Origin: Microbacterium sp. SORGH_AS_0969
Lineage (GTDB): Bacteria; Actinomycetota; Actinomycetes; Actinomycetales; Microbacteriaceae
Assembly (NCBI RefSeq): GCF_030818255.1
Contig: NZ_JAUTAG010000001.1
Location: 1,612,001-1,676,000, forward strand
DNA length: 64,000 nucleotides
Direction of reading: 5' to 3'
The translations under genes were made by a program, and so were the position numbers. The notes below the pieces were generated by a model that searched no databases, was not told where the DNA came from, and was given only the letters and a program-made list of their open reading frames with translations. The number at the start of each line of letters is the position of its first letter. Within the stretch, counting starts at the first letter, position 1. This document shows positions 8,871 to 60,685 of this stretch, in pieces.

Positions 8871-8945
8871 CAGATTCGGAGATGAGCAGCAGATTCGGAT
8901 CGATGCACCGGGCAGGTCCGAATCTGACGCTCATCTCCGATTCTG
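8871..8945. repeat. palindromic element A1
   Basis: A near-perfect 75-bp inverted repeat. The left arm begins CAGATTCGGAGATGAGC and contains CAGATTCGGA twice. The right arm is the complement, ending GCTCATCTCCGATTCTG. It lies between the convergent giant membrane protein gene and fic, 82 bases after the former's stop. It has no U-run. It is related to the elements at 32935, 34888 and 35808. Confidence 0.85.
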
Positions 8946-9006
8946 CGCGTGTCGGAGGCCCACTGACGGTAACCGAAAACTCGAAGGAGCGTCCTCGCGT
9001 TGCCCG

Positions 9007-10176
9007 TCAGCCCTCGTAGCCCATCGGCATGTCGATGACCTCGAAGATCGCGGGCGCGTACCATCGTTCGCGCCCGCCCCTGCCGTGCGTTCCTAGGGAG
9101 CGGAGCCAGCCTCGCTTCTCAGCGTTCTTGATGAGCAGGCGTGTTCCTTGGTTGGTCATCTGGAGCTCGTCTTCGACTGACTTGACCGTAACGAACGGGT
9201 TCCGAACGATGATGTCGACGAGCCGCGGCAGGTTCGAACGCTCCTTGATGGCTTCCGAGTGATATCGCTCGCGAATGGAAATCAGCCTGCGGGAGCGGTC
9301 GACGGCGTCGTCAGCTTGTGCGCGAACGGCCTCGAGGAAGAACGTGAGCCATCCCTCGATGTCGGCTTTCTCACGCACGGCCTGAAGCCGCTCGTAGTAC
9401 TCCTCCCGGTGGGTTTCGAAGTAGTTCGAGAGGTATAGCAGCGGCAGGGGAAGGCGCTTGCGTTCCATGAGAAGGAGGTTGATGAGCAGCCGCCCGATTC
9501 GGCCGTTGCCGTCGAGGAACGGGTGGATCGTCTCGAACTGGTAGTGCATGAGCCCGGCCTGCACGAGCGCCGGCAGGGCGCGACCGTCGTCGTTGACGAA
9601 CCGCTCCCAATCCGCGAGGAGGTCGCCCAGGTGTTGGGGGAGCGGCGGTACGAATGTTGCGGACGTCGGCGTAGCGCCAGCGCGGCCCACCCAGACGGGG
9701 GAGCGTCGGAACTCCCCAGGCGATTTCTCCTCGCCCCGCACCCCAGTCAAGAGGGTTTCGTGGACCTGAAGGATCAGTCTCTGGGTGATCGGCAACGTTG
9801 CTGCCAACGTGTAGGCCTGATGCGTCGCCTGAAGATAGCGGTGGACTTCGGCGGTGTCGTCGTTGCGCGCGTCGGTGTCGATCTCTGCTTGGAACACCTC
9901 GGATAGCGATGCTTGGGTGCCCTCTATTCGAGAGCTCGCGAGCGCCTCACGCCGAAGGTACGGGCCGATGAGCAGGCTCGGGTCGGTGATGAGCATGCCC
10001 AGTCCCTGCAGATGTCCGAGAGCCGCGTCCGCTTCGGAGAGTGCGGCGACGACCACGCTCGACAGGTTCAATTGGCGCGGGATGGGCCTGGGGAGGTAAT
10101 AGACGAACGCATCCTTCTTGCCGGGCTCGCGCGTGGCGTATCCGAATGCGGAGTCGACAGATCGGGTTGCATCCAT
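9007..10176 (-). CDS. Fic family protein (class II, self-inhibited)
   Basis: A 389-residue Fic protein, typically an AMP transferase acting on a target protein. The active-site motif HPFLDGNGRIGR starts at His218. An N-terminal inhibitory helix motif SSRIEG (81-86) fits the (S/T)xxxE(G/N) consensus, placing it in class II with the inhibitory segment in cis. An N-terminal Fic_N-like region precedes it. A C-terminal winged-helix-like segment (about 325-385, VKSVEDELQMTNQGTRLLIKNAEKRGWL) suggests DNA binding and autoregulation. The upstream region holds four copies of a TTGGAGCGT box. Its target is unknown; the type is widespread in soil actinobacteria. Confidence 0.9.
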   Translation of the reverse strand: MDATRSVDSAFGYATREPGKKDAFVYYLPRPIPRQLNLSSVVVAALSEADAALGHLQGLGMLITDPSLLIGPYLRREALASSRIEGTQASLSEVFQAEIDTDARNDDTAEVHRYLQATHQAYTLAATLPITQRLILQVHETLLTGVRGEEKSPGEFRRSPVWVGRAGATPTSATFVPPLPQHLGDLLADWERFVNDDGRALPALVQAGLMHYQFETIHPFLDGNGRIGRLLINLLLMERKRLPLPLLYLSNYFETHREEYYERLQAVREKADIEGWLTFFLEAVRAQADDAVDRSRRLISIRERYHSEAIKERSNLPRLVDIIVRNPFVTVKSVEDELQMTNQGTRLLIKNAEKRGWLRSLGTHGRGGRERWYAPAIFEVIDMPMGYEG

Positions 10177-10205
10177 GCATCCACGCTACAACTAACTGGG
10201 CGTTT

Positions 10206-10292
10206 CAGTTGGAGCGTCATGGCGCGGTTGTAACTCGAGTTGGAGCGTGAGCCTGACGCTCCAAGTGACTTGAACGTCGGTTGGAGCGTCGG
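10206..10292. promoter_or_regulatory. four TTGGAGCGT boxes upstream of fic
   Basis: TTGGAGCGTCA or a close variant occurs at about 10208, 10240 and 10280 on the plus strand and as its complement TGACGCTCCAA at 10254. All lie within 110 bases of the fic start (10176). The central pair forms an inverted repeat around a seven-base centre. The boxes could be operators for the HTH-bearing Fic protein. They could also be another intergenic palindrome family. Confidence 0.5.
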
Positions 10293-10311
10293 TCCTCCTC
10301 CGCGCGACGCG

Positions 10312-10347
10312 GTCGTTTCTCGCGTCGACCAGTTTGGAAGAAACGAC
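10312..10347 (-). terminator. hairpin downstream of eccC
   Basis: GTCGTTTCT (10312-10320) pairs perfectly with AGAAACGAC (10339-10347) over an 18-base loop. It lies about 75 bases past the eccC stop at 10422 on the minus strand. No strong U-run follows, so termination is possible but not certain. Confidence 0.4.
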
Positions 10348-10421
10348 GAGGCCAACTCCCGTGCGCGCAGAGGTGGGCCGCATGTCTCGCCTCCGCCGCC
10401 ATCATCCGCCGGCGCCGAGGA

Positions 10422-13400
10422 CTACGGCGCGCGGTTGGCTCTTCTGCGTCGCGTCAGCGGCGGATCCTCGGCGTCCGTCCCGGCAGGACGGGGACCGGAT
10501 GCCGTGCCCTCGGCGCGCCGACCCGCGTCGGCCCGCGACTTCACCGCGGTGTCGCCGACGATCGCCTCGTCGCCGAGGTCGGCGGTGTCGCCGCCCACCG
10601 CCGCATCGTCAGCCCGCGCGGCGTCACCGCCCGCTGCCGCGTCATGAACGTCTGCTGTCTCGCAGCCCGCCGCCGCGCCGCCCGTCACCGTTGAGCCACC
10701 CGCCGCCGCCCCAGCCCCCGCGCCCGCCGCCGCCCCTGCCGTCGCATCCGCGCCCGCGCCCGCGGCCGCATCTGCCGTCCCACCCGCCGCGACACCCGCG
10801 CTCGCACCCGCCGCCGCCCCTTCCCCGGCGACGAAGTTCGCCACCTGCACCAGCGTCGGCCGCTCGCCGCGCCGCGCGAGGCGGCCGCGGCCGGCGATCA
10901 TGGGCTCCGCGTAGAGCTTCGGCAGGATCGCGCCCTCGGAGCGGTCGCCCGACATGATCAGAGCCGTGCCTCCGGTGTCGCGGATGCCCTGCAGCGCCGC
11001 ATCGAACATCGCGCGCGCGGCGCCGGCCACCGGCCGGCTGACCACGACGTTCAGGCGCAGATCGCGAGCCGAGGCGAGGTATGGCAGCAGGGGGCGCAGG
11101 GGCTCGGTGCCGCCGGCGGAGAGGATGTCGAAGTCGTCGGCGATCACGAGGATCCGCGGGCCCGAGTCGCGGTCGCTCTGGCGCTTCTCGAGCTCGACGG
11201 CGATCGACTCGGCGAGCAGGCGCGCCTGTCGTCCCGACGACGCGTGTCCGCCGAGGTACGCGTCCGGCACCTCCGACACCAGCTCCCCGCGCGCGTCCAT
11301 GAGCGCAACGACGAGCTCTTCCGGGGTGTGCCGGTCGATCGTGCCGCGCACGATCCCGCGGAGGGCGGTGGTCTTGCCGCAGTGGCTGTCGCCCAGCACG
11401 AGCAGGTGCGGGTCGCGCGTGACGACATCGAGGAGCACGGGCTGCATCGTGTCTTGGCGGAGCCCCAGGGGCACGGCATCCGGTTCGTCGATCGCATCGG
11501 GCAGCTCGGCCGGGGACAGTTCTTCGGGCAGCAGGCGGATCGGCGCCGCCCCCTGACCGCCCCAGCGCGCCGCACTCTCTCGCGCGAGCTGTTCGAGCGC
11601 CTCGCCGGTGTCGCCGTCGTCGACCTCTTCGAGCAGGGGGAGGGCGATCTGCGCGAACAGCTTGTCGTCGGTGAGCACGCGGCCCGGCTGGTCGGCCTTG
11701 AGGGTCGTCGAGAGCTTGCGCGCGATCTGCGAGTCGGCGGGATCGTTGAGCTTCAGTTCCAGGCGCGTGCCGATGAGGCCCTGCAGGTTCATACGGAGCT
11801 CGTTCCACCGCGAGAGGGCGACGACGACATGGATGCCGAAGCTTCCGCCCCTCTCCAGGAGCTGCGCGAGCGGCGCCTCGAGGTCGTCGAAGTCTTGGCG
11901 CAGCGCCCCGAGCCCGTCGACGAGCAGAACGACGTCGGCGCTCGGCAGCTCGGGCAGACGCCCTTGCGCGTGCTGGCGGCGCATGTCGGCGAGAGAGTCG
12001 AGACCGTAGTCGCGGAAGACGCGCTCGCGCGTCGCGAGCATCGCGGTGAGCTCCTCGAGCAGTCGCGTGAGGCGCTCGCGGTGCCCGCGCGTGGCGACAC
12101 CGCCGACGTGCGGGAACGGCTCGATGCGGGCGAGGCCGCCGCCGGTGAGGTCCATGCCGTAGATGCTGACCTGGCGCGGCGAGTGCGTGAACGACAGCGA
12201 CGCCGCGAGGGTGCGCAGGAACATCGAGCGTCCCGACTGAGGTGCTCCGGTGATCGACACGTGTCCGCCCGAACGGGTGAGGTCGAGCATCCAGGGCGAC
12301 TGCGTCTGCGTGGAGGGGTTGTCGAGGAGGCCCATCGGGGCACGGAGCGTCCCGGCGCCGTCGGCCTGCGGCAGCACACCGCCGAGTGTGAGCACGGGCG
12401 GCAGCGGCGGGAGCCAGACCGGCCGCGTGCGGGTGACGCCGCGGGCGAGACGCTGGGTCGCCGCTTGCACGAGCGTGCGGCCGGTGGTCGGGGTCTCGGG
12501 CTCGGCGCTGTCGAACTCTTCGGCCTCGACCTCGTGCGCGGGGAGGTCGTAGGCGGGAAGCGGCAGGACCGGCGGGGCATCGTCGTGCCGTGGTCCGGCC
12601 TCGACGGGGTCGGGAACCGGTCCCGAGACGTAACCGGCGCGGAAGCGGGTGTAGACCGAGGTGTCGACCTTCAGGTAGCCGAAACCGGGGATGGCGGGGA
12701 GGTGGAAGGCATCCGGGGTGTCGAGCACGACGGCCGACTCGGCCTCCGAGAAGGTGCGCAAACCGATGCGGTACGAGAGGTACGTGTCGAGGCCGCGGAG
12801 GCGTCCGCCCTCGATGCGCTGGCTCGACAGCAGCAGGTGCACGCCGATCGATCGACCGATGCGCCCGATCGTCAGCAGCAGCTCGACGAAGTCGGGTTCG
12901 GCCGTGAGCAGCTCGCCGAACTCGTCGATGACGAGGAAGAGGTGCGGCAGCGCCGGCAGGTCGGGCCGTTCCCGGCGCATCTGTCGGTAGTGGCCGATGG
13001 ATGCCGCGTTCCCGGCATCCTTCAACAGGCGCTGCCGACGCACGACCTCGCCCTGGATGCTCGACCGAGCGCGCTCGGTCAGCTGCGGGTCGTCGGCGAG
13101 GTTGTCGATGATGCCCGCGACGTGCGGGAGCCGCGAGAACGGCGCGAACGCCGCGCCCCCCTTGTAGTCGACGAGGATCATGCTGAGGTCGTCGGGCGAG
13201 TGGGTCAGGGCGAGCCCGAGGATGAGCGTGCGCAGCAGTTCGCTCTTTCCCGAGCCGGTCGCGCCGATGCAGATCCCGTGCGGACCCATCCCGAGCTGCG
13301 CCGACTCCTTGAGGTCGAGCAGCACCGGGCCGCCCCGGTCGTCGACGCCGATGGGCACGCGAAGGAACTCCGCGGCGCTGCGCACCCGCCACGAGGCCTT

Positions 13401-17902: not shown

Positions 17903-18078
17903 GCCGCCTCCCTGGACACCGACCAATACCTTCTTCATGCGTCTTTCCCGGCCCCGCGGGCTTGATCACGCGGGAAGTCTTCCCCTGAGGGGCGTCTTTT
18001 CTACATCTCGGGAGCGCGATCCGTGGCGCATCTCGCCCCGTTTTACGGACGGGTCCGGGAACCCCCGTGAAACGGCGG

Positions 18079-19789: not shown

Positions 19790-19841
19790 GGCATTCATCC
19801 TGCCCGACGGGGTGTCTGCTTCGTCGCCGACTTTCGTGCCA

Positions 19842-19915
19842 GCCGGAGGATCTGGGACGACCGGAGGATGGATGCCGGGGGCCGGTCCTCCGCTTGTCCC
19901 AGATCCTCCGCCGGT
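19842..19915. repeat. palindromic element D1
   Basis: An inverted repeat whose arms each contain the box CCGGAGGA twice, separated by TCTGGGACGA, which itself pairs with the matching spacer of the other arm. The loop holds GGATGCC. It is the third of three tandem copies counted from hemA and lies between hemA and the 93-residue protein gene. Confidence 0.85.
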
Positions 19916-19936
19916 CACGCCCCCGCAGCCCGCCAC

Positions 19937-20006
19937 GGGAGGAGTTTCGGCGGCGGGAGGGCGGATGCCGCGGCGGCGGCCCTCCGCTCCCGGAACCTCC
20001 TCCGCC
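19937..20006. repeat. palindromic element D2
   Basis: A diverged member of the D family. The left arm GGGAGGAGTTTCGGCGGCGG pairs with a right arm ending CCGGAACCTCCTCC, and the loop carries GGATGCC. It lies between D1 and D3. Flanking GCAGCCCG sequences recur on both sides. Confidence 0.75.
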
Positions 20007-20040
20007 GGCTCGCGGAACATGCCGCAGCCCGGTGCCGGTG

Positions 20041-20119
20041 CCAGCCGGAGGACTGGGGACGAAGGGAGGACGGATGCCGGGGCTCGGTCCTCCGCTCGTC
20101 CCAGGTCCTCCGCCGGTCA
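20041..20119. repeat. palindromic element D3
   Basis: It runs from CCAGCCGGAGGACTGGGGAC to GTCCTCCGCCGGTCACGG, nearly the same sequence as D1 with GGATGCC in the loop. It starts about 30 bases beyond the hemA stop. Elements D1-D3 together fill almost the whole 360-base gap 19790-20149, in which I see no gene. Confidence 0.85.
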
Positions 20120-25397: not shown

Positions 25398-25790
25398 TTC
25401 CGGGCGGGCGTTCCGGATACCGCGGGCGTGCCGTCGTGCGGAGTCCGGGGGCGACGCGCCGCTGGCGGCCCGAGGGTGTCGGCGTGTCGGGTACGAACTC
25501 CGCCTGATGGTCCGCGGTGGGAGGCCCGGGGCGTCGATGGTTCCGGATGCCGAGCGCGTACCGTCGTGCGGAGTCCGGCGGCGACATGCCGCTTGCGGCC
25601 CGAGGGTGTCGGCGTGTCGGCCACGAACTCCGCCTGACGGTCCGCGGTGGGAGGCCCGGGGCGTCGACGGTTCCGGATGCCGGGCGCGTGCCGTCGTGCG
25701 GAGTCCGGCGGCGACATGCCGCTTGCGGCCCGAGGGTGTCGGCGTGTCGGCCACGAACTCCGCCTGACGGTCCGCGGCACCGCCCGCCGG
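25398..25790. repeat. 130-bp tandem repeat, three copies of palindrome family C
   Basis: CCGTCGTGCGGAGTCCGG begins at 25431, 25561 and 25691, an exact 130-base period. Each unit is an 80-bp inverted repeat (25431-25510, 25561-25640, 25691-25770) whose right arm ends GAACTCCGCCTGACGG. A 50-bp linker containing GGATGCC follows, and a partial linker precedes the first unit. The field fills the 456-base gap between the convergent DUF3618 and bestrophin-like genes. I see no gene in it. Confidence 0.9.
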
Positions 25791-32934: not shown

Positions 32935-33013
32935 CGCAGAATCGGAGATGCGCACCGGATCCGGATGCCAAGAGCGATCTCATCCGAATCTGTAGCGCAT
33001 CTCCGAATCTGCG
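32935..33013. repeat. palindromic element A2
   Basis: The left arm starts CGCAGAATCGGAGATGCGC and the right arm ends GCGCATCTCCGAATCTGCG, with inner arms GATCCGGATG and CATCCGAATC. GGATGCC stands at the loop edge. Compared with A1 the stem has GATGCGC/GCGCATC instead of GATGAGC/GCTCATC, a compensated change. It lies between the convergent cofD gene and the CU044_5270-like gene. Confidence 0.88.
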
Positions 33014-34887: not shown

Positions 34888-34966
34888 CGCAGAATCGGAG
34901 ATGAGCCGCAGATCCGGATGCCGAGAGCGATTTCATCCGGATCCGTTGCGCATCTCCGAATCTGCG
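34888..34966. repeat. palindromic element A3
   Basis: Left arm CGCAGAATCGGAGATGAGC, inner GATCCGGATG; right inner CATCCGGATC, outer GCGCATCTCCGAATCTGCG. GGATGCC lies at the loop. It stands 59 bases beyond the cofC stop on the minus strand and upstream of the ECF sigma gene. It is about 80% identical to A2. Confidence 0.88.
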
Positions 34967-35807: not shown

Positions 35808-35890
35808 GCGCGGAATCGGAGCGACGTACCGGAATCGGATGCCGGGACCGCGTCGGTCCGATTCCGGCGCAACGCTCCGATTCCGGTGCG
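35808..35890. repeat. palindromic element A4
   Basis: A diverged A-type palindrome. GCGGAATCGGAGCG and CCGGAATCGGA on the left pair with TCCGATTCCGG and CGCTCCGATTCCGG on the right. GGATGCC lies at the loop. It begins 17 bases beyond the fgd stop on the minus strand. Its outer box changed from CAGATTCGGA to CGGAATCGGA in both arms. Confidence 0.85.
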
Positions 35891-36917: not shown

Positions 36918-38520
36918 GAACTCTCCTAGGGGCGGGGATGGGTGGGGGTCGCTTCGGCGGGCTCGGCGGCCGGGGTCGTGGTTGCCGCGGGGGTGGGCGG
37001 TGGCTTCGGCAGGCTCGGCCACCGGGCTCGGAGCTGCCACGGCCGCCCACGCCGCGGGTTCGAACTCCGACCCGTCGGTGCCGACGAGGCGTTCGTGGAA
37101 AGCCTGCACCGTGCCCGGCCACAGCAGGGTCAACCGCCCGGATCGCTCGTCGACGTACCAGTTGCGGCATCCGCCGGTCAGCCAGGGGGTGGATGCCGCT
37201 GCCGCGGCGATCTCGTCGGTGTACGCCGCTTCGGCTTCGGGGCGGACGTGGAGCGTCCGGTCGGGGCGGCGATCGCGTTCCGTGAGGGAGCGGACCACGT
37301 ACACGGCCTGCTCCTCGGCCATGAGGACGGCGGAATTGTGACCGAGGCTCGCGTTGGGCCCGTTCAGCACGAAGAGGTTCGGGAAGCCCGCGACGACCGT
37401 CGACCCGAACGAGGTCATGCCCTCCGACCAGTGGTCGGCGAGGGTGGTGTCGTCCGCGCGCACAAGGTCGGCGTAGGGCTGCCGGGTCGAGGCGAAGCCC
37501 GTCGCGAGGACGAGGATGTCGGCCTCGTACCGCTCGCCACTCGCGGCGGTGAGAGTGGAACCGTCGACCGCCAGGAGCGCTGTGGGCTCGAGGGTGACGG
37601 CATCCGACGCCACCGCGGGGTAGAACGCGTCGGACAGGAGCACGCGCTTGCACCCGAAGGCGTAGTCCGGTGTCAGGGCCTCGCGCAGGGCGGGGTCGGA
37701 CACCTGGGCGTGCAGGTGGGAGAGCGCCATCGCGCGAGCGGCGGCGGATGCCGCGGCGTCACCCGAGCGCGAGGCGAAGCGTTCTTCTCCCTCGGCGTAG
37801 AGCTCGGCGCGCAGGCGGGCGAGGTCGCCGGGGTTCTCGGCGAGACGCTCGCGGTCGCTGCGGGGGATCTCGCCGCCGCCGCGCGGGACGATCCACGCGG
37901 GGGTGCGCTGGAACAGCGTCACGTGTGCGGCGCGGCGGGCGAGTTCGGGGACGAGCTGCACCGCGCTGGCGCCGGTGCCGACGACGGCGACCCGCTTGCC
38001 GGGTGAGGTCGACGTCGTGGTCCCACCGGGCGGAGTGGAACAGGGGACCGTCGAACGACTCGAGCCCGTCGATCGGGGGGACGTGCGGCTCGGTCAGGCG
38101 GCCGCACGCGAGGACGAGCGAGCGGGCGATGAGCGGCTCAGCGTCGATGCCGGTGTCGATGCGCCACACCGCGTCCGCGGCATCCCACTCGGCTCCGAGC
38201 ATCGGCGTGCGCAGGCGCAGACGGTCGCCGAGTCGCTCGCGCGCCGCGACGTCGCGCAGGTACGTCTGGATCTCGCCGCCCGGGGCGAACGTCCGCGACC
38301 AGTGCGGGTTCGGGTGCGCGGCGAGGCTGTAGAGGTGCGCGGGCACGTCGCATGCGACGCCGGGGTAGGTGTTGTCGCGCCAGGTGCCGCCGACATCGGC
38401 GGCGCGCTCGAGCACGACGAAGTCGTCGCGGCCGGCTCGACGCAGTGCCCCCGCCATGGCGAGGCCGGCGAATCCCGCGCCGACGATCGCGACGTCGACG
38501 ATGCGCTCGACGGAGGTCAC
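36918..38520 (-). pseudogene. Baeyer-Villiger-type flavin monooxygenase, frameshifted
   Basis: The first 170 or so codons from the ATG at 38520 encode an FAD motif (VAIVGAGFAGLAMAGALRRAG) and the Baeyer-Villiger fingerprint FDGPLFHSARWD. One extra base in a GGG run at 38001-38003 then shifts the frame. The expected continuation, GKRVAVVGTGASAVQLVPE (NADPH-binding), is found in another frame and runs to about 37050. There is no stop before fgd; the 3' end is made of imperfect repeats around GCTTCGGC(A/G)GGCTCGGC. The start overlaps the fbiC stop by ATGA. It may be a pseudogene or contain a sequencing error. Confidence 0.8.
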
Positions 38521-40952
38521 GCGGGGGCCACCCGGTAGTCGGTCGTCCGCTGCCGGAAGGGGCGCATGAGGCTGCGGGCGAGGCGTTCGGCCGCGGCGAC
38601 CGGCAGCTCGAGCCCCTGCTCGATGCCGGTGTCGGGCAGCACGCGGCCGTCGTAGAGCGTTCCGCCCAGGTCGTCGCCGCCGGAGCGCAGCAGCACCGCG
38701 GCGGTGTCGCGGCCGACGCGCGTCCAGGGAATCTGCACGTGCGGGATGCTGCCCGAGAGGAACAGCCGCGACACGGCGACCATCGCGCGGTGCTCGTCGA
38801 GCGGGGCGCGCCCGGTCACGAGCGGAACGTCGCCCCCGGGCAGCGGGATGGGCACGAACTCGGCGAAGCCGCGGGTCTCGTCCTGGATCTCGCGCAGCCG
38901 CCGCAGGTGCGCGATCCGCTCTTCGCCCGTCTCGACGTGGCCGTAGAACAGCACCGACGTCGAGCGGAACCCCGCGCGGTGCGCGGCGGTGATCCCCTCG
39001 ACCCAGCGGTCGATCTCGAGGTCGCCGGGCGCGACGAGCGCGCGCACCCGCTCGCTGAGGATCTTCACGCCCGTGCCCGGCACGGTGTCGACGCCCGCGT
39101 CGCGCATCGCGGCGAGGGCACCGTCGAGCCCGAGTCCGCCGCGGTCGGCGAGGTCGCGCACGTCGGCCGGACGATAGGCGTGCACATGGATGCCGGGAGC
39201 CCCGCGCTTCACCGCCCGCACCACGTCGAGATAGCCCGAGGGGTCTTCGTCGGGGCGCAGCGAGCCCTGAATGCAGATCTCGGTGGCACCGAGGTCGGCG
39301 GCGTCGGCGGCGATGGCCGTGGCGTCATCGAGGTCGAACTCGCCCGCCCCCGTACGGCCGGCGCGCCGGAACCCCGTCGAGGTCAGATTGCGGTTCTGCA
39401 CGAGAGTGATCGGCTCGCCCACGGTGTAGCGGCGTGCGTCGTCGGCGACGGCGGCGAGGGCATCGAGCTCGGCGCCGGTGGCGCGCAGCAGGCGGGTCCA
39501 GTCCGCGTCGTCGAGCCCGAGGGGATCGGATGCCGCCCGCTCGGCGAGGCGCTTCACGCCGGGGTCGGAGCTCGCGGCGCCGGAGCCCGCGGCGCCGGAG
39601 CTCGTGGTGCCGGAGCTCGCGGCGTGGTGAGCGGAGGACGAGGGACGAGCGGAGGACGGGAGGTCGGCGTCGGGTCCTCCCTGCGTCCCTGTTCCTCCCT
39701 CGGACACCGCGCGCGGGATCACATCGGCCGCGAGCCCCTCGGCATCGGCCAGGGCCCGAACGCGCGCGTGGAGGGCCGGGTCGATCCAGTGCGCGGCATC
39801 CTGAACGAACTCGGGATGCGCGGTGAGGCGTTCGCGCAGCGTGTAGCCGTGGGCGGCGGTCTGGGCGGCGAGGTCGTCGATCTGCGGCCAGGGGCGCTCG
39901 GGGTTGACGTGGTCGGCCGTGAGCGGCGAGACCCCGCCCCAGTCGTCGATGCCCGCCGCGATCAGGGCGCCCAGCTCGCGCGGGTCGGAGAGGTTCGGCG
40001 GTACCTGGATGCGCATGTCGGGTCCGAACACGAGTCGCGCGACGGCGACCGTCGCGAGGTACTCGTGCATGTCGGCATCCGGGGCGCCCTGCATGGCGGT
40101 GCGCGGCTTCGCGCGGAAGTTCTGCACGATGACCTCTTGCACGTGGCCGTGCCGGTCATCGAGCTCGCGCAGCGCCACCAGCGACTCAGCGCGGTCGCGC
40201 ACGGTCTCGCCGATGCCGACGAGGATGCCGGTGGTGAACGGGATGCCGGCGGCCCCCGCGTCGTCGATGACCTTCAGGCGCAGGTCGGGGTCTTTGTCGG
40301 GGGAGCCGTAGTGCACCTGCCCGGGCTCTTCGTAGAGGCGGTGCGAGGTGGTCTCGAGCATCATGCCCATCGACGGCGACACCGGGCGCAGCGTCGCCAG
40401 TTCGTCGGGGTGCATGACGCCGGGGTTGGCGTGCACGAGCATGCCCGTCTCGGCGGTGATGAGCCGCGCGATGTGCGCGACGTAGTCGATCGTGGAGGAG
40501 AAGCCGTGCTCGTCGAGCCACGCGCGGGCTTCGGGCCAGCGTTCCTCGGGGCGGTCGCCGAGGGTGAGGAGCGCCTCTTTGCAGCCGAGCGCCTGCCCCT
40601 GTCGCACCACGGTGAGCACCTGCTCGGGGCTCATGTACGTCGGCTTGCGCAGCAGGTTCAGCTGGCCGGGGGTGTCGACGAAGACGCAGTAGTGGCAGCG
40701 GTCGCGACACAGCGTCGTGAGCGGGACGAACACCTTGCGCGAGTACGTCAGGACGTCGGGGCGCCCGGCGCGCGCCAGACCCACGTCGCGCAGTGCTCCG
40801 GCGACGCGGAACAGCTCGTCGAGAGGGGCGTGCAGCAACCGTTCGGTCTCGTCGACGTTCGGACGGTGGCCGCCCAGGACCTGCGCGAGAAGATCGTCGA
40901 TCGATGCGCCTCGGGCCGGTGCGACTCGCGGCGCAACACTGCCCGTACTCAT
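38517..40952 (-). CDS. fbiC: FO synthase FbiC (CofG-CofH fusion) with abnormal CofH half
   Basis: An 811-residue two-domain radical-SAM protein that should make the deazaflavin FO from tyrosine and a ribitylaminouracil. The N-terminal CofG half is intact, with LTTLCRDRCHYCVF giving the CxxxCxxC cluster motif. A Ser/Ala-rich linker (about 415-475) follows. The C-terminal CofH half keeps ITLVQNRN, GATEICIQGSLRPDED, YGHVETGEERIAHL and DLGGTLYDG. After NRN it reads LTSTGFRRAGRTGAGEFDL, so the CxxxCxxC block and about ten residues are absent. FO synthesis by this protein alone is therefore doubtful. It heads the fbiC-BVMO-fgd operon. Confidence 0.9.
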   Translation of the reverse strand: MSTGSVAPRVAPARGASIDDLLAQVLGGHRPNVDETERLLHAPLDELFRVAGALRDVGLARAGRPDVLTYSRKVFVPLTTLCRDRCHYCVFVDTPGQLNLLRKPTYMSPEQVLTVVRQGQALGCKEALLTLGDRPEERWPEARAWLDEHGFSSTIDYVAHIARLITAETGMLVHANPGVMHPDELATLRPVSPSMGMMLETTSHRLYEEPGQVHYGSPDKDPDLRLKVIDDAGAAGIPFTTGILVGIGETVRDRAESLVALRELDDRHGHVQEVIVQNFRAKPRTAMQGAPDADMHEYLATVAVARLVFGPDMRIQVPPNLSDPRELGALIAAGIDDWGGVSPLTADHVNPERPWPQIDDLAAQTAAHGYTLRERLTAHPEFVQDAAHWIDPALHARVRALADAEGLAADVIPRAVSEGGTGTQGGPDADLPSSARPSSSAHHAASSGTTSSGAAGSGAASSDPGVKRLAERAASDPLGLDDADWTRLLRATGAELDALAAVADDARRYTVGEPITLVQNRNLTSTGFRRAGRTGAGEFDLDDATAIAADAADLGATEICIQGSLRPDEDPSGYLDVVRAVKRGAPGIHVHAYRPADVRDLADRGGLGLDGALAAMRDAGVDTVPGTGVKILSERVRALVAPGDLEIDRWVEGITAAHRAGFRSTSVLFYGHVETGEERIAHLRRLREIQDETRGFAEFVPIPLPGGDVPLVTGRAPLDEHRAMVAVSRLFLSGSIPHVQIPWTRVGRDTAAVLLRSGGDDLGGTLYDGRVLPDTGIEQGLELPVAAAERLARSLMRPFRQRTTDYRVAPA
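39628..39705. repeat. palindromic element D4 inside fbiC
   Basis: GTGAGCGGAGGACGAGGGAC with a second GCGGAGGAC on the left pairs with GTCCTCC, GTCCCTG and TCCTCCCTCGG on the right, the same four-box layout as D1-D3. It lies wholly within the coding frame and encodes part of the linker between the CofG and CofH halves (SSARPSSSAHH region). An adjacent imperfect repeat of GCGCCGGAGCTCGCGG adds AASSGTTSSGAAGSG. Confidence 0.8.
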
Positions 40953-41513: not shown

Positions 41514-41582
41514 CCTCGTTGAGTGTCCGAAACACCCGGACGATTTTCTGAGACGTCCGGGTTTCTCGGAGACTCAACGAGG
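41514..41582. repeat. palindromic element B1
   Basis: CCTCGTTGAGTGTCCGAAAC with CCCGGACG on the left pairs with CGTCCGGG and CTCGGAGACTCAACGAGG on the right, arms of about 29 bp and a short T-rich loop. It stands between the convergent PH-like and TauE-like genes, 26 bases from the latter's stop. It could end transcription from both sides. Confidence 0.85.
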
Positions 41583-51125: not shown

Positions 51126-51961
51126 CGCGCGAGCTCCACCCGGTCGCGGAGATCTGCGGGCTCGATGGCGGCCAGCTCGTCGAGGAAGGTGACGGCGAAC
51201 GATCCCGGTCCTCGGGCTCCGGATGCCGCCCGCTCCGACGCCACGGCCCAGACGGCGCTCGCCGCGACCGCAGCGTCGAACGGCTCCGCGACCGCAGCGA
51301 AGGCGGCCATCGCGGCGCCGAGCGCGCAGCCTCCGCCGGTGACCTTGGTCAGCAGGACGCTGCCGCCGGGGACGCGCGCCGTGCGGGTGGCATCCACGAT
51401 CAGGTCCGTGTCGCCCGACACGGCGACCGTGCCGCCGGTGCGGGCGGCGAGGGCGCGAGCGGCGTCGAGCGCGTCGTCGGCGGCGTCGGTCGTGTCGACC
51501 CCGCGCCCGCCGCAGCCGGCGCCGGCCAGAGCGAGGATCTCGGAGGCGTTGCCGCGGATGATTGCGGGGCGCGCGTCGAGCAGCTCGTGCGCGAGCGCCG
51601 TGCGGACGGGAAGGGCTCCCACCGCGACGGGGTCGAGCACCCAGGGGGTGCCGGTGGCGACGGCTTCGCGAGCGGCGTCGCGCTGCTCGGCGGTGGGGGT
51701 GCCGAGGTTGACGAGAACGCCGCCGGCGATGCCGGCGAACATGCCCGCCTCTCCGGGGATGTCGCACATGGCGGGCGCCGCGCCGAGGGCGAGGAGTGCG
51801 TTGGCGGTGAAGTTCGTCACCACCGCGTTGGTGATGCACTGCGTGAGCGGTGATGTCTCGCGGAGGCGCGCGAGCGCGTGCGAGGGGGCCTGCGCGAGCG
51901 CTTCGGCGGGAGCGGGGGCATCCGCGGGGGTAGACGGAGACGACGACGTGCGAACGACCAT
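51122..51961 (-). CDS. thiM: hydroxyethylthiazole kinase
   Basis: A 279-residue kinase that phosphorylates the thiazole moiety for salvage. The N-terminal [20 protein letters not shown], the GNASEILAL block and [18 protein letters not shown] (catalytic Cys in GGGCALG) are characteristic. The ATG at 51961 is chosen because GAAGGG is nine bases upstream; an earlier in-frame ATG (51970) touches the Shine-Dalgarno sequence. First gene of the operon, immediately behind a TPP riboswitch. Confidence 0.93.
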
Positions 51962-51969
51962 TCGCGACA

Positions 51970-52042
51970 TCCCTTCGCTAGTACGAACTAGATCAGGTTC
52001 GACGGGTGTGTTCTCAGCCCTAGCGGGCACCCCGTGTCACTG
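51970..52042 (-). promoter_or_regulatory. TPP riboswitch of the thiM operon
   Basis: On the minus strand the THI-box consensus is seen: CACGGGGTGCCC, CTGAGA, then ACCTGATCTAG and AGCGAAGGGA. The 3' part includes the Shine-Dalgarno sequence for thiM (GAAGGG), so thiamin pyrophosphate should block translation initiation. The promoter must lie in 52043-52330, 3' of the HNH gene; I see no clear promoter boxes or gene there. Confidence 0.92.
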
Positions 52043-52330
52043 CGGGCGACGCTAGCACAGAGCTCGCGGCGCTCGGTGCGGGTGGGAGGGTGCTGACGGG
52101 TGGATGCCAGAGGCGTGGCGTAGGCGGGCGGGACGGTGCGGGCGTGCGGTTCGGACGACCCCGCTGCGCGCGGATCGGCGCGAAGCGCGATGTGGTTCAC
52201 GGCGAAGGGGTGGATGGACGTGCGGAAGGGCGAAGGGGCGCATGGGCGCGGGACGCGCGCGAAGGCGCAGAGGCGCGCGGGCCGCGGCGCGGAAGCGGGC
52301 GCACGCCGACGACCGCCCGCGGGAAGCCGG

Positions 52331-53662: not shown

Positions 53663-53928
53663 GTGTGCATGCTAGCGAGGGGGTCCGACATCGACGGGGG
53701 CTCGGGAGCCCCGGTGGGGATCGATCCGGATATTGCTCCGATGTGCAGAAGGGATCCCCGGGCGACGGTGTGCGCTTCACGGGATGGCGGGCGAGGGTCG
53801 CCTGTATGGCGTTGAGGTGACGGGGCCGTCGGCGCGGGCCCTCCGCGCCGCGGCGCCTGGCGGTGATCGTCCGCGTTCCGGCTCGCTCGGCGTCGGGGGC
53901 CGCGTTCGGCGCTGCCGTCCGCGGCATC
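53663..53928. other. gene-free upstream segment of the HNH gene
   Basis: This stretch lacks any convincing gene and precedes the repeat field. The only structure I see is a short stem at about 53692-53708 (GGGG, CTCGGGAG, CCCC). It should hold the promoter of the HNH gene, but I cannot place boxes with confidence. Confidence 0.4.
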
Positions 53929-54399
53929 CATAAACGCGATTCGCGCGCAGAAACGCGGGGAGGGCGCGTTTATGTGAGCCAATGGCGTTTATGGGTCGCG
54001 GGTCTCGGCTCGGGGTGGTCGCTCGTCTGTTGGCCCGGGGGTTCGCGGCGCGTGCCCGGAGCTGTCGGCGTGGATCGACGGAGCGTGGGCGGCCCGCGCG
54101 GGTTGTCCGCGCGTGGCGTGTTCGCCGCGGCATCCATAAACGCTGTTCGCGCGCAGAAACGCGGGGAGAGCGCGTTTGTGTGAGCCAATGGCGTTTATGG
54201 GTCGCGGGTCTCGGCTCGGGCGGCTGCTCGTCTGCCGACCCGGCGTCCGTACGGTGGCCTGCCGGGGCCGTCGATGTTCGACGTGGCAGAGGCCGCCCGC
54301 GCGCGGCCCGCACGTGGCGTATCGATCGCGGCATCTATAAACGCGATCGGCGCGCAGAAACGCGTGGAGAGCGCGTTTATGTGAGTCGACAGCGTTTAT
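53929..54399. repeat. three palindromes of family E in a 200-206 bp tandem array
   Basis: CATAAACGC (or CTATAAACG) begins at 53929, 54135 and 54335. Each element is 65 bp: TAAACGC, spacer, GAAACGCG, short loop, GCGCGTTTATG, spacer, GCGTTTAT. The 140-bp segments between them also begin alike (GGTCGCGGGTCTCGGCTCGG), so the whole unit is tandemly duplicated. GCGGCATC(C/T) stands immediately before each. The field lies 3' of gntR and 5' of the HNH gene. I see no gene in it. Confidence 0.88.
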
Positions 54400-54423
54400 C
54401 GCCCGAGCTCGGCGCCCCGCGCC

Positions 54424-54597
54424 GACGCCGCAAGCACCGCCACCGCAAGCGCTAGCGCCGAAGCACCGCCACCGCAAGCACCGCCACCGCAAGCGCTAGC
54501 GCCGAAGCACCGCCACCGCAAGCGCCGCCACCGCAAGCGCCGCCACCGCAAGCGCCGCCACCGCAAGCACCGCCACCGCAAACGCCGAAGCGCCCCC
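54424..54597. repeat. minisatellite next to the gntR stop
   Basis: About a dozen imperfect copies of CCGCCACCGCAAGC and GCGCTAGCGCCGAAGCA, with 12-15 and 27-base periods, end five bases before the gntR stop codon on the minus strand. The sequence is purely Gly/Ala/Arg-like when translated, and no start signal is seen. I read it as non-coding simple-sequence DNA. Confidence 0.8.
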
Positions 54598-54602
54598 GGC
54601 GG

Positions 54603-54968
54603 CTAACCGTCCGCCAGCGCCGCCCGCACCAGCTCCACCGCATCGGCGGGCGCGACGCCCAGTCGGCGGACGGTGTCGGCGTACGCGCGCGCCGCCTCCG
54701 CCGCGCGCGCGGACGCGGGATCCGTGCCGCGCACGATCGTGCCGGCGCGACCGCGCGTCTCGACGTAGCCCGCTTCCTCGAGCTCCTTGTACGCGCGGGC
54801 GACGGTGTTCGCCGCGAGGCCCAGGTCGCTCGCGAGCGTCCGCACCGGGGGCAGGCGTGTGCCCGCGACCGTCGACCCGTTCTCGATGCCGGCGATGATC
54901 TGCGCCCGCACCTGCTCGTAGGGCGGCGTCGGGGAGGTGGCATCCAGGCGGATCTCCACGCCGGTCAC
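54603..54968 (-). CDS. GntR-family transcriptional regulator (YtrA type)
   Basis: A 121-residue regulator with only a GntR winged helix (about 12-78: PYEQVRAQIIAGIENG, LPPVRTLASDLGLAANTVARAYKELEEAGYVETRGRAGTIV) and a short C-terminal helix, as in the YtrA subfamily. The GTG start overlaps the stop of the D-Ala-D-Ala carboxypeptidase gene (GTGA), so it may respond to cell-wall stress or control its own operon. No ABC transporter, the usual partner of YtrA, is adjacent. Confidence 0.86.
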   Translation of the reverse strand: MTGVEIRLDATSPTPPYEQVRAQIIAGIENGSTVAGTRLPPVRTLASDLGLAANTVARAYKELEEAGYVETRGRAGTIVRGTDPASARAAEAARAYADTVRRLGVAPADAVELVRAALADG

Positions 54969-56644: not shown

Positions 56645-56685
56645 CCGCCCACGCTACCCCGGGCGTCCCCCTATACTCGTCAGCA

Positions 56686-56778
56686 CAACCACGGGAGTCC
56701 GGTGAGCCGGGCTGAGAGGAAGCGAATCCACGCTTCGACCGTCGAACCTGATCCGGATCATGCCGGCGCAGGGAGGAG
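56686..56778 (+). promoter_or_regulatory. TPP riboswitch of the ykoEDC operon
   Basis: The THI-box is complete: GGGAGTCCGGTGAGCCGGGC, CTGAGAGG, a variable stem (GCGAATCCACGCTTCG), then ACCTGATCCGGATCATGCCG and GCGCAGGGA. It overlaps the Shine-Dalgarno sequence GGGAGGAG of the first gene, consistent with translational control by thiamin pyrophosphate. Confidence 0.95.
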
Positions 56779-56783
56779 AAGAA

Positions 56784-57416
56784 ATGCACACGTCCACGTC
56801 TGCGCGCACGGCCCCCGCCGTGGCAACCGGGAACCGCTTCACCTGGCGGGTCGTCGACATCGTCGTCGCCGCCGTCCTCGGTGTCGCGGTCGGCCTCGTC
56901 TTCTGGGGGTGGAACACCGTCGGCGGTCTGTGGTTCACCGCGATGGACGCGTTGACTCCCGGCCTCGGCGGCATCGCGGTCGGCATCTGGCTCATCGGCG
57001 GCGTGATCGGCGGTCTGATCATCCGCAAGCCGGGCGCCGCGCTTCTCGTTGAGCTGATCGCCGCCGTCGTCTCGGCGCTCATCGGCAACGTCTGGGGTGT
57101 CACCACCATCTTCTCCGGCCTCGCCCAGGGGCTGGGCGCGGAGCTGATCTTCCTCGCCTTCCTCTACCTGCGCTTCACCCTGCCCGTTGCGATGCTCGCG
57201 GGTGCCGGCGCCGGTGTCGGCGCGTGGGTCCTGGAGCTGTTCCTGACGCCGAACCTTTCCAAGACGGTCGAGTTCAACCTCACCTACCTCGGCACGCTCG
57301 TCGTCTCGGGCGCTCTGCTGGCGGGCCTCGTCGGGTGGCTGCTCGTGCGGGCGCTCGCCGCGACCGGCGCGCTCAGCCGGTTCGCCGCCGGGCGGGAAGC
57401 ACGCCGCGACGTCTGA
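56784..57416 (+). CDS. ykoE: ECF transporter substrate-binding component YkoE
   Basis: A 210-residue membrane protein with six transmembrane helices (RVVDIVVAAVLGVAVGLVFWGWN first), of the YkoE family of S components for thiamin or its hydroxymethylpyrimidine precursor. GGGAGGAG precedes the ATG; an earlier ATG within the riboswitch is not used. The stop overlaps the ykoD start (TGATG). The TPP riboswitch in front supports a thiamin-related substrate. Confidence 0.92.
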   Translation: MHTSTSARTAPAVATGNRFTWRVVDIVVAAVLGVAVGLVFWGWNTVGGLWFTAMDALTPGLGGIAVGIWLIGGVIGGLIIRKPGAALLVELIAAVVSALIGNVWGVTTIFSGLAQGLGAELIFLAFLYLRFTLPVAMLAGAGAGVGAWVLELFLTPNLSKTVEFNLTYLGTLVVSGALLAGLVGWLLVRALAATGALSRFAAGREARRDV

Positions 57417-58864
57417 TGCCGGGCCCTGCGCGCGTCGACGTCGAGGGCTGGGGCTGGCGCTACGCCGGCAGAAAGCGCCCCGCCACGCGTGACGTCGACC
57501 TGACGATCGAACCCGGCGAGCGGGTCCTCCTGCTCGGTGCCTCGGGAGCGGGCAAGTCCACGCTGCTCGCCGGACTCGCGGGGCTCCTCGGTGGCAGCGA
57601 CGAGGGAGAGGCCACGGGCCGGATCCTCGTCGACGACCGCGCCCCCGAGGGGCAGCGCGGCCGGATCGGTCTCGTCCTGCAGGATCCCGAGGCCGGGATC
57701 GTGCTGTCGAAAGTCGGCGACGACGTGGCGTTCGGCTGCGAGAACCTCGGTGTGCCCGCGGCCGACATCCCGGCGCGGGTGGCGGAGGCCGTGGCATCCG
57801 TGGGTCTGTCCGTGCCGCTCGATCGCCCGACCAAGGCGCTGTCGGGTGGGCAGAAGCAGCGTCTGGCGCTCGCGGGGGTTCTCGCGATGCGTCCGGGGCT
57901 GCTGCTGCTCGACGAACCGACCGCCAACCTCGACCCCGAGGGCGTCGCCGAGGTGCGGGCTGCGGTCGAGCACGTCGCGCGGACCGACGGGACCACCGTC
58001 GTCCTCATCGAGCACCGCACCGCGGTGTGGGTCGACCTCATGACGCGCGTCGTCGTGCTCGCCCCCGGCGGAGGCGTCCTGGCCGACGGTCCACCCGATC
58101 GCGTGTTCGCTCGGCACGGTGCCGCGCTCGCCGCCGCGGGTGTGTGGGTGCCGGGGCGTCCGGTCGATCTGCCCGTGCTCCCTCCTCTCGAGATTCCGGA
58201 TGCCGCGCTCGAAACGCGCGGGCTGTCGATCGGGCGCGAGCGGCGCGCGGTCGTCGCGGCGGGACTCGACCTCGCCGTTCCGCGCGGCGCCGGCACGGTC
58301 GTCACCGGACCCAACGGCGCGGGCAAGTCGACGCTCGCGCTGACCCTCGCCGGGCTCCTGCCGGAGCTCTCGGGGGAGGTCGTCGCCGCGGAATCCCTCG
58401 CGGCCCGCGGCATCCGTCGTCCCTCGCGCTGGCGCTCGACCGAGTTGCTCACCCGCATCGGCACGGTGTTCCAGGAGCCCGAGCATCAGTTCCTCGCCCC
58501 CACGCTCCGCGACGAGCTCGCGGTCGGACCGAAAGCCCTGCGGATGCCGACGGCCCAGGTCGACGCGATCGTCGACGAGCTTCTCGAGAGGTTGGACCTG
58601 GCATCCCTCGCCCTCGCGAACCCCTTCACGCTGTCGGGAGGGCAGAAGCGGCGCCTGTCGGTGGCGACCGTGCTCGCGGCCTCGCCCGAGGTGATCGTGC
58701 TCGACGAGCCGACGTTCGGGCAGGATCGGCGCGGATGGAGCGAGCTCGTCGCGCTGCTGCAGCGCGAGATCGCGCGAGGGCGCACCGTCGTCGCCGTGAC
58801 CCACGACGCCGACGTGGTGCGGCACCTCGGTCAGCACCGCATCGCGCTGGGGGACGCGGCATGA
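57416..58864 (+). CDS. ykoD: ECF transporter ATPase with duplicated ABC domains (YkoD)
   Basis: A 482-residue protein containing two ABC ATPase domains in one chain. The first has Walker A GASGAGKST and signature LSGGQKQR. The second has GPNGAGKST and LSGGQKRR, with Walker B strands LLLLDEPTANLDPEG and VIVLDEPTFGQD. It powers the YkoE S component together with the YkoC T component. TGATG and ATGA overlaps tie it to both neighbours. Confidence 0.93.
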   Translation: MPGPARVDVEGWGWRYAGRKRPATRDVDLTIEPGERVLLLGASGAGKSTLLAGLAGLLGGSDEGEATGRILVDDRAPEGQRGRIGLVLQDPEAGIVLSKVGDDVAFGCENLGVPAADIPARVAEAVASVGLSVPLDRPTKALSGGQKQRLALAGVLAMRPGLLLLDEPTANLDPEGVAEVRAAVEHVARTDGTTVVLIEHRTAVWVDLMTRVVVLAPGGGVLADGPPDRVFARHGAALAAAGVWVPGRPVDLPVLPPLEIPDAALETRGLSIGRERRAVVAAGLDLAVPRGAGTVVTGPNGAGKSTLALTLAGLLPELSGEVVAAESLAARGIRRPSRWRSTELLTRIGTVFQEPEHQFLAPTLRDELAVGPKALRMPTAQVDAIVDELLERLDLASLALANPFTLSGGQKRRLSVATVLAASPEVIVLDEPTFGQDRRGWSELVALLQREIARGRTVVAVTHDADVVRHLGQHRIALGDAA

Positions 58865-59643
58865 CCGCGGTCGACGTCGCGCCGCGCACGGCGTGGATCG
58901 ACGGGGTCAATCCCGTGACGAAGGTCGCGATGGTGGTGGTGCTCGCGCTTCCCCTGTTGATCTCCGTCGATGCGGTGAGCGCGGCCGTCGCGCTCGTGCT
59001 CGAGTTGCTGTGCGTGCCGTTCACGGGTCTGGCGTACCGCGTCGTGGCGAAGCGCCTCGTGCCGGTGCTGCTGTTCGCCCCGGTCGCGGCGGTCAGCATG
59101 CTGCTGTACGCGCGACCGGGCGGAACCGTCTACGGCACCTTCCTCTTCGCGACGATCAGCGACGACTCGCTCGCGCTGTCGTTCGCGGTGCTGCTGCGCG
59201 TCGTCGCGCTCGCGCTGCCCATGATCCTGCTGTTCGCCCGGACCGACCCGACCGAGCTCGCCGATGCCCTGGCCCAGGTCGCGAAGCTCCCGAGCCGGTT
59301 CGTGCTCGGCGTGCTCGCGGGCGCGCGCACGGTCGGGCTCTTCGTCGACGACTGGCGCACGATGACCCTCGCCCGGCGCGCCCGCGGGCTCGGCGATCGA
59401 GGGGCGCTGCGCCGGTTCTTCTCGATGGCGTTCGTGCTGCTGGTCTTCGCCGTGCGCCGCGGGACGACGCTCGCCACCGCGATGGAGGCCCGCGGCTTCG
59501 GCGCCGACGTCGAGCGGACGTGGTCGCGTCCCTCGCGTCTTCACCCGCGCGACGCCGTCGCCCTCGCCGGTTCCCTCGCCCTCGTCGCCGTGGCGTTGAC
59601 CGCCGCGGTAGTGTCGGGCGCATTCCGCGTGGTGGGCACGTAG
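58861..59643 (+). CDS. ykoC: ECF transporter transmembrane component (CbiQ/YkoC type)
   Basis: A 260-residue membrane protein of the EcfT family. It has five or six hydrophobic segments and a cytosolic coupling region with the Ala-Arg-Gly motifs TLARRARGLGDRG and TAMEARGFGAD that contact the ATPases. It completes the thiamin-type ECF transporter with ykoE and ykoD. A family B palindrome lies 82 bases after its stop. Confidence 0.92.
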   Translation: MTAVDVAPRTAWIDGVNPVTKVAMVVVLALPLLISVDAVSAAVALVLELLCVPFTGLAYRVVAKRLVPVLLFAPVAAVSMLLYARPGGTVYGTFLFATISDDSLALSFAVLLRVVALALPMILLFARTDPTELADALAQVAKLPSRFVLGVLAGARTVGLFVDDWRTMTLARRARGLGDRGALRRFFSMAFVLLVFAVRRGTTLATAMEARGFGADVERTWSRPSRLHPRDAVALAGSLALVAVALTAAVVSGAFRVVGT

Positions 59644-59725
59644 GCCTCGGCGTGGGTGCTGCGCCCGCAGGTGCTGCGGCCTCGCCGTTACGCGCGCACC
59701 GCGCCGTCACGCTGCGTTCGGAGCC

Positions 59726-59784
59726 TTGAGTGTCCAAGAAACCCGGACACTTTTGAAAATCGTCCGGGTGTTTTGGACACTCAA
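59726..59784. repeat. palindromic element B2
   Basis: TTGAGTGTCCAAGAAACCCG and GAC on the left pair with GTCCGGGTGTTTTGGACACTCAA-type sequence on the right, 23-bp arms around a T/A-rich loop (ACTTTTGAAAATC). It stands between the convergent ykoC and phosphotransferase genes. Confidence 0.88.
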
Positions 59785-59835
59785 CGGAGTTCGGGCTTGG
59801 GCTCGAGCCGGGGCGGGGCGCGGAGGGAAGGGGCC

Positions 59836-60570
59836 TCACGTCGCGTTCCACAGCGCCCGGTAGTACGCCAGGCGGGTGGCATCCGGAGTGACGCCGTAGG
59901 CCTCGAGGAGAGGCTCCTCCCAACCGGGACCGTAGTTCCAGGTCGTCGACATCGCCGCGACCGCGATGTCGGCCCAGCGATCGGCGACGCCGAGGGCTCC
60001 GAGGTCGACGTGAGCGCTCCACTCGCCGTCGTCGGCGACGAGGGTGTTCGGTACGCACGCGTCGCCGTGGCAGACGACGAGCCGATCGATCGGCGGGGCG
60101 TCACGCAGGTCGTCGGGCACCCGGATGCCACGCCCCGCGGCGTTCGTGAGACGGTCGGGCACCGCCCACGAGAACGGGCACTCGGCCACCGGCAGCGCCT
60201 CGTGCAGGGCCCGCAGCCCTCGTCCCACCGCCCGTACCGCACGAGCGGGGTCGGCGATCCACCGCGGATCGACGGCGGAGAGCCCCGGCATCGCCTCCGT
60301 CACGAGCCACTCGTGCGCGGCATCCTGTCCCTGGTCCAACACGCGCGGCACGGGGGTGAATGCGCCCGCCCAGCGCAGACGTTCCGCCTCGGCGCGCATC
60401 GAGGTCTCGGCGTTGCGCGGCCCGACCTTCACGAACCGGATGCCGTCGGCCCCCGCCGCTCGGAACGTCACACCGCCGATGGCGTTGCGCCACACCGGCT
60501 CGAGCGCCGCGTCGCCGGCGAGATCCCGCACGCGCGCCGGGACGGGCTCGGACGCCGCGGGGATGCTCAT
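59836..60570 (-). CDS. aminoglycoside phosphotransferase-family kinase
   Basis: A 244-residue APH-fold kinase. The catalytic loop VVCHGDACVPNTLV and the metal-binding HVDLGALGVADRWADIAVA motif correspond to HGDxxxxN and xDxxxxG of the APH(3') group. It may phosphorylate an aminoglycoside or another hydroxylated small molecule; resistance is not proven by sequence alone. Single gene, flanked by palindromes B2 (3') and B3 (5'). Confidence 0.85.
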   Translation of the reverse strand: MSIPAASEPVPARVRDLAGDAALEPVWRNAIGGVTFRAAGADGIRFVKVGPRNAETSMRAEAERLRWAGAFTPVPRVLDQGQDAAHEWLVTEAMPGLSAVDPRWIADPARAVRAVGRGLRALHEALPVAECPFSWAVPDRLTNAAGRGIRVPDDLRDAPPIDRLVVCHGDACVPNTLVADDGEWSAHVDLGALGVADRWADIAVAAMSTTWNYGPGWEEPLLEAYGVTPDATRLAYYRALWNAT

Positions 60571-60630
60571 CGCTCGATCCTCGCGCGCTCCCCTCGCGGG
60601 CGCGAGCCCGCGGCGGGCTGAGCGCGGGCC

Positions 60631-60685
60631 GAGTGTCCGGAACACCCGGACGTTTTTGGCGGGGATCCGGATGTTGTGGACGCTC
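60631..60685. repeat. palindromic element B3
   Basis: GAGTGTCCGGAACACCCGGA with C on the left pairs imperfectly with GATCCGGATGTTGTGGACGCTC on the right around a GTTTTTGGCGGG loop. Unlike all other members it lies between divergent genes, 61 bases upstream of the phosphotransferase start. Confidence 0.75.

Follow-up and report, generated by a model that had tools for sequence, protein, structure and literature searches.

A stretch of 64,000 nucleotides from Microbacterium sp. SORGH_AS_0969 (the window; G000:C1:1612001-1676000, 72% GC, in a genome of 3.94 Mb) carries 17 long palindromes of five sequence families, A to E, most of them next to gene 3′ ends. Among named records, the closest protein to one of its genes comes from Microbacterium testaceum (89%), and the nearest loci are likewise from Microbacterium. 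We propose that these palindromes are probably recognition sites of selfish nuclease genes, each with its cognate protein, and that they are tolerated mainly past the 3′ ends of genes. Beyond what was computed here, namely copy number, position, independence of the arms (in family E and in the B copies of this genome), absence of Y1 transposases, linkage between genes and palindromes, and predicted protein fold, the proposal implies that the proteins would bind and cleave the palindromes and that these would spread by break repair.

Predicted nuclease genes lie between palindromes of one family

In the related genome G007, a DUF559-family gene was found between two B palindromes. A search with PF04480 in four genomes returned 21 loci, 8 of which were judged by eye to lie between two palindromes of the same family, the families differing between paralogs. 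Flanking was then scored for the best homolog of the B-linked protein, which 52 genomes have, at the loci of 30 of these genomes: 15 of the 30 loci (three of the 30 being cut by contig ends) were flanked. None of 600 random windows attained this score, although seven did at a threshold one point lower. The thresholds of this test and of the ten-paralog test described below were set by reference to controls.

A profile of 15 proteins of this kind identified ten paralogs in the genome of the window (E <= 1e-20). Nine of them are flanked on both sides by palindromes of the same family, and no two share a family. The automatic flanking score placed eight of the ten above all 216 control genes of similar size, and the ninth, associated with family N, was recognized by eye. 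The flanked paralogs are located at 2159866 (B palindromes), 2309804 (C), 884652 (D-like), 2339144 (E), 6754 (H), 2286025 (K), 2946969 (M), 287039 (N) and 2352378 (O). The tenth (G000:C1:3902017-3902844) has no palindromes beside it and is perhaps a domesticated or decayed copy.

Palindromes matching those beside the paralogs were also found away from the genes in our sample of this genome. The sequence read in the whole analysis comprised the window and 980 kb in 20-kb stretches, together about 26% of the genome, as well as stretches of relatives. We counted 15 such places for B, 20 for C, 15 for E, 7 for H, and two each for K, M and N, compared with none in shuffled sequence; the arms adjoining the D-like and O genes had no places elsewhere in this sample. 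Since the flanked set of this genome includes B, C, E and D-like palindromes, three of the window's five families have a partner gene and D has a related one. The window's own D form flanks a paralog in G007 (by eye). No partner gene was found for family A. A called gene between two A copies (L220:9068-9994) has no Pfam domain and was rejected, as was a gene of G020 beside weak A-model matches, which belongs to the CTCGGA family.

The first ~186 residues of the protein are predicted to have an AbiEi-like, DNA-binding fold, with both domains present, and the last ~105 residues an EDxHD homing-endonuclease (I-Bth0305I/Vsr) fold, with the catalytic residues present. A Vsr-type domain is named for MTES_1575 in PMC3710099. 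The first-pass annotation of this DNA had suggested, as one possibility, that one process spreads or maintains all the families; this is supported in one particular form, that of genes for nucleases of predicted AbiEi and EDxHD/Vsr folds that in this genome mostly lie between palindromes of the same family. The interpretation given in that annotation is, as a whole, partly supported.

Proteins and palindromes also tend to go together across genomes. All eight genomes with a homolog at least 49% identical to the B-linked protein carry B palindromes, compared with 8 of 50 others, with the 49% line drawn post hoc and with G012 and G016 having many B copies although they lack a homolog at that level. 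Arm similarity correlated with protein identity over 23 loci, at 0.31 (reached in 4 of 5000 permutations; this Mantel correlation omitted 5 of 28 loci that had no pair within limits), and more weakly, at 0.19 (84 of 5000), without the six B orthologs.

Variation and architecture of the arms

In gaps between tandem genes the transcribed strand is known, and a stem kept as RNA should there show G-U pairs in excess of A-C mismatches. The long palindromes had 79 G-U and 73 A-C (n = 67, p = 0.69), and 126 and 123 under looser settings (n = 87). Short 3′ hairpins, which served as a control, had 54 G-U against 24 A-C (n = 126, p = 0.0009), and the two groups differed in this balance (p = 0.016). Comparison of copies gave a similar picture. 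In 37 copies of E, arms of the same copy agreed in 871 matches versus 876 ± 9 for arms of different copies (z = -0.56), and the arms of 17 B copies from this genome also varied independently (z = -0.21). Some covariation was found in A (z = +2.3) and in B taken over several species (z = +3.2), and in six aligned A copies the paired changes exceeded those in shuffles. Box positions in the E columns are nearly invariant (0/74 changes in several), the others being free or two-state.

Because there is no G-U excess, and because the arms are independent in E and in the B copies of this genome, the palindromes do not behave as RNA hairpins. The common RNA function that had been raised for them, such as 3′-end formation or termination, is therefore disfavoured. 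Quasi-palindrome repair by template switching was dropped because the arms of these same copies do not covary. Judged from its sequence, each palindrome resembles a degenerate duplex-DNA motif that is present twice in inverted orientation and that a protein would bind.

Each arm had been described as box-spacer-box in A, D and E, and one form as common to all five families. The box arrangement holds for A, D and E, with a period of 18-19, but not for B and C, and the five families thus do not all share it. We sorted 120 inverted repeats with arms of at least 22 bases, from 2.02 Mb of this genome and its relatives, into 44 sequence families. Shifted by 19 bases, arms matched themselves at 0.304 of positions (mean of the 44 families), about 11 standard deviations (SD) above shuffled arms (0.163, SD 0.013); shifts of 17, 18, 20 and 21 gave 0.250, 0.197, 0.153 and 0.176. 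A, E, F and several families found in relatives alone have a strong 19-base repeat, the cluster with D and G has a repeat of 18, and in B, C, H and K none was seen. The shared geometry is thus real, given the enrichment over 44 families, but with these exceptions it is not universal. In 1.37 Mb mostly from other actinobacteria (a few loci being from Microbacterium), 26 such repeats had scattered best shifts, two of them at 19, and Amycolatopsis had one five-box array of period 21. At L208:6774 and L091 (Amycolatopsis), two boxes lie on one side and three on the other, with periods of 20 and 21, which suggests that box number can change. The spacers were also said to pair. They do so loosely in the window copies, but over the 37 E copies the variable positions mismatch as often as arms from different copies.

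Copy number and position relative to genes

The window contains 18 inverted repeats with a score of at least 12, compared with 3, 4, 8, 12 and 8 in five dinucleotide shuffles; seven of them score 17-20, and the best value across the shuffles was a single 17. In 864 kb of the genome, 73 inverted repeats had arms of at least 18, versus 7 in shuffled sequence. Covariance models of B, E and A, built from 15, 9 and 6 of the places that they match, found 16, 16 and 14 clear places in the 864-kb sample (leaving aside three, one and two near-threshold matches), and the families occurred in 16, 15 and 17 of 58 genomes, respectively. In the whole genome, B gave at least 91 and E at least 90 matches over both strands. 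Since these matches reach the number of candidates scored, each family has at least about 45 genome places, and the lack of additional copies, named beforehand as refuting the observation, is contradicted. The palindromes are real and occur in many copies throughout the genome. Families B and E are dense in a group of eight genomes that are close by DNA identity (82-91% over the compared region among the seven sisters) and patchy beyond.

Fifteen of the 17 window palindromes lie in convergent or tandem gaps, one between divergent starts (60627) and one inside fbiC (39626), as had been annotated; gene borders are approximate, as they were called with a purpose-made codon model. Families A-G contributed 61 elements to the sample: 29 were in tandem gaps, 25 in convergent and 5 in divergent ones, with 1 in a gene and 1 at the end of a stretch. 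Counting gaps of at least 100 bp, palindromes occupied 19 of 68 convergent, 24 of 154 tandem and 4 of 96 divergent gaps, so that convergent and tandem gaps together (43/222) were occupied more often than divergent ones (p = 0.0002). A broader collection of 158 long inverted repeats, irrespective of kind, from this genome and its relatives included 20 within called genes.

Two further repeated sequences were noted in this material. The word GGCATCC/GGATGCC occurs at 1.37 times its expectation from shorter words (864-kb sample of this genome), and was seen by eye in loops of A and D copies. Inverted repeats of CTGAGC(C/T)TGTCGAAG form a frequent short family (for example at L016:3303, at L017:9570, and in G024 at the site of window 25431), whose arms are often unpaired (68 of 120 matches at <=3 mismatches), a habit unlike that of the families reported here.

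Palindromes of the window and their turnover at orthologous sites

All 17 places given by the first-pass annotation were confirmed by reading and folding, with the D copy at 19937 the weakest. Its description of the arms as near perfect was overstated, as the listed copies are 80-90% complementary, and as a whole the observation was partly confirmed. Scanning without gaps under stringent limits (arm >=18, loop <=30, score >=11) recovered 11 of the 17 and missed those annotated at 19937, 39628, 60631, 25431, 25691 and 54335. The copy at 60631 matches the B model and that at 54335 the E model, both having been in the model-building sets, and the C copies at 25431 and 25691 align with that at 25561. 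Rfam at gathering scores detected two thiamine pyrophosphate (TPP) riboswitches in the window and no match to a palindrome.

Family A is represented at 8869..8947, between convergent 3′ ends; at 32935..33013, also convergent; at 34888..34966, between tandem genes and 58 bp past a 3′ end; and at 35809..35887, between tandem genes and 19 bp past a 3′ end. G007 has a shorter, divergent copy at the site orthologous to the second and lacks the third, the other 17 relatives having no anchor at either site. At the site of the fourth, inspection by eye showed no A palindrome in any of 18 relatives, but other palindromes or nothing. The B copies at 41514..41582 and 59724..59786 lie in convergent gaps, and that at 60627..60689 between divergent starts. 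Three C copies (25431..25513, 25561..25643 and 25691..25773) form a 130-bp tandem array in a convergent gap. Family C arrays of three or four units, spaced at 118-171 bp, were also noted at L017:70-484, L041:6335-6634 and L016:9860-10119, alongside that at window 25431-25773. Of the D copies, 19839..19915 is between tandem genes, 19935..20012 is the weakest, 20041..20117 lies close to these two, and 39626..39704 is in the inter-domain linker of fbiC (Radical_SAM and CofH_C; 38517..40838, minus strand), where the reading frame stays open. The E copies (53929..53993, 54135..54199 and 54336..54400) match the E model, and the distances to the nearest 3′ end are 202, 403 and 609 bp.

In close species, orthologous gaps contain a palindrome of the same family, one of another family, or none. 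At 41514, B is present in this genome, G020 and G024, with a degenerate remnant in G007, an unrelated palindrome in G009 and nothing in G006, G016 and G027. At 19842, where this genome has three D copies, G007 has one, G006 two, G009 at least three, and G024 and G027 none (judged partly by eye). In all 19 genomes compared, the length of the fbiC linker is divisible by 3; D-like palindromes were seen in it by eye in G007, G009 and G006 and other palindromes in several distant species, and none was detected in G020, G016, G027 and G024. At one shared E site, the differences between this genome and G007 are confined to free positions in the part of the arm that was read, while G006 and G027 have also changed in a box position. 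At another, 66 of 71 positions are identical between this genome and G027, with an unrelated left flank (0.40, shuffled 0.44) and a similar right flank (0.82). Among 23 copies of B and 34 of E, target duplications of 2-8 bp were not in excess.

Outside the 17 palindromes and the families, the window has an additional imperfect palindrome with repeated TTGGAGCGT boxes at 10205-10268. The two TPP riboswitches are ordinary ones, at 51953-52044 (minus strand) and 56681-56791 (plus strand).

Proposed mechanism and alternative explanations

If the palindromes are recognition sites of selfish nucleases, a motif of roughly 15-33 bp would occur twice at each site, in inverted orientation, and one or two monomers of the cognate protein would hold each motif. 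The nuclease gene would sit between two copies of its own palindrome, with further copies scattered on the chromosome. The nuclease may nick or break the DNA at or beside a site, and repair would copy or reinsert the palindrome. Insertions would survive where harm is small, in most cases beyond the 3′ end of a gene and in one case within the linker of a protein. New paralogs would take on new motifs, which would lead to many sequence families of similar form. That this amounts to a new class of mobile repeat, in which AbiEi-EDxHD nucleases copy their sites via break repair and an arms race between paralogs creates families in each species, seems to us evenly poised between right and wrong.

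The palindromes could instead be host sites, at which domesticated AbiEi-nuclease proteins bind gene ends and act as transcription roadblocks, in supercoil control or as chromosome marks. Such a role would fit the E box columns that remain unchanged in 74 arm positions beside freely varying ones, the retention of E at two orthologous sites in some species (G007 and G027), and the preference for convergent and tandem gaps. We nevertheless consider it unlikely, since box positions have changed in G027 and G006 at the same E sites, many orthologous gaps are empty or hold a palindrome of another family, and one copy lies inside fbiC. Still less probable is that the nuclease is a toxin with a DNA antidote, where scattered palindromes would soak up the harmful protein and a cell losing copies, or foreign DNA without palindromes, would be cut. 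AbiEi is indeed a member of a toxin-antitoxin family and acts through inverted repeats to repress its own promoter (PMC7319586), and the nine flanked loci of this genome also have a palindrome on the upstream side; however, we see no separate sign of harm, and some paralogs have few copies (two each for K, M and N in the sample, none for O).

RNA hairpins acting as bidirectional terminators or mRNA stabilisers would explain the location past 3′ ends, the strong predicted folds and the covariation in six aligned A copies, but we regard them as very unlikely given the lack of the G-U excess seen in short hairpins, arms of E and own B that do not covary, and a palindrome within the open gene fbiC. 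Least probable of all are REPINs, derived from repetitive extragenic palindromes (REPs), or miniature transposons of insertion sequences (MITEs), even though the look is the same, with scattered and clustered inverted pairs and a single gene flanked by its repeats. The linked REP-associated tyrosine transposase (RAYT; PF01797), which had been put forward for testing, is absent from this genome and from all 35 genus genomes; it was found in 2 of 23 other genomes of the order and in 5 of 14 control genomes. Unpaired arms in ~1.04 Mb (1 for B, 10 for E and 7 for A) were all in known palindromes whose other arm exceeded the mismatch limit; in this sequence, therefore, none of the three families showed a long parent. 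With no target duplications for B and E either, MITEs were rejected. Viral contigs contained no exact match of the B and E patterns, and a single copy of each family compared with plasmids gave no match either, and a viral or plasmid origin of B and E was likewise set aside.

Comparison with known systems

Palindromes spread by nuclease genes of their own would recall several known elements. The palindromic elements of Rickettsia are repeats of several families that can sit in frame inside genes; ours are also palindromic and multi-family, with one clear in-gene case (fbiC, 1 of 61), and we know of no nuclease gene linked to the Rickettsia elements. MITEs are short inverted pairs that carry no gene, and differ in the target duplications and long parents with the same ends that we did not see (for B and E, and for B, E and A, respectively).

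The sites of AbiEi and Rv2827c, type IV antitoxins, are inverted repeats of 23 bp separated by 3 or 13 bp, according to PMC7319586. This geometry is similar to ours, as is the fold predicted for the first ~186 residues; here, however, that fold is fused to a nuclease domain and the sites extend beyond the gene's own promoter. I-Bth0305I is a phage mobile-intron protein and an EDxHD homing endonuclease (PMC3943268). Its catalytic fold and residues are predicted in our proteins, but the gene lies between two whole sites instead of being inserted in, and disrupting, its own target; an AbiEi-like part is added, and the sites are scattered over the chromosome.

The closest likeness is to REP/REPIN sequences and RAYTs, in which scattered extragenic palindromes form several families per genome, each beside its own single-copy gene (PMC3116915). 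Several scattered families, clusters, co-divergence and an own single-copy gene flanked by the family (9/10 paralogs) recur here. The gene differs, being predicted to encode an AbiEi-fold nuclease rather than a Y1 tyrosine transposase, and so do the arms, which in E and in the B copies of this genome appear to act as duplex motifs, unlike a single-strand hairpin whose arms covary. Among titles and opening lines of abstracts in the open-licence literature, we found no description of a DUF559 or AbiEi nuclease tied to palindromic repeats. Palindrome families with their own predicted nuclease gene between copies point to a selfish repeat system of a type not previously described. Proteins with no name beyond 'DUF559' or 'endonuclease domain-containing' would thereby gain a likely role, and nine gene-site pairs with distinct motifs in one genome would offer a test bed for DNA recognition by the AbiEi fold. 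Many bacteria have repeated extragenic palindromes, and to our knowledge the enzyme tied to them is the Y1 transposase (RAYT). If our reading is true, a second, unrelated type of enzyme has the same layout, which would suggest more than one origin of the REP way of life.

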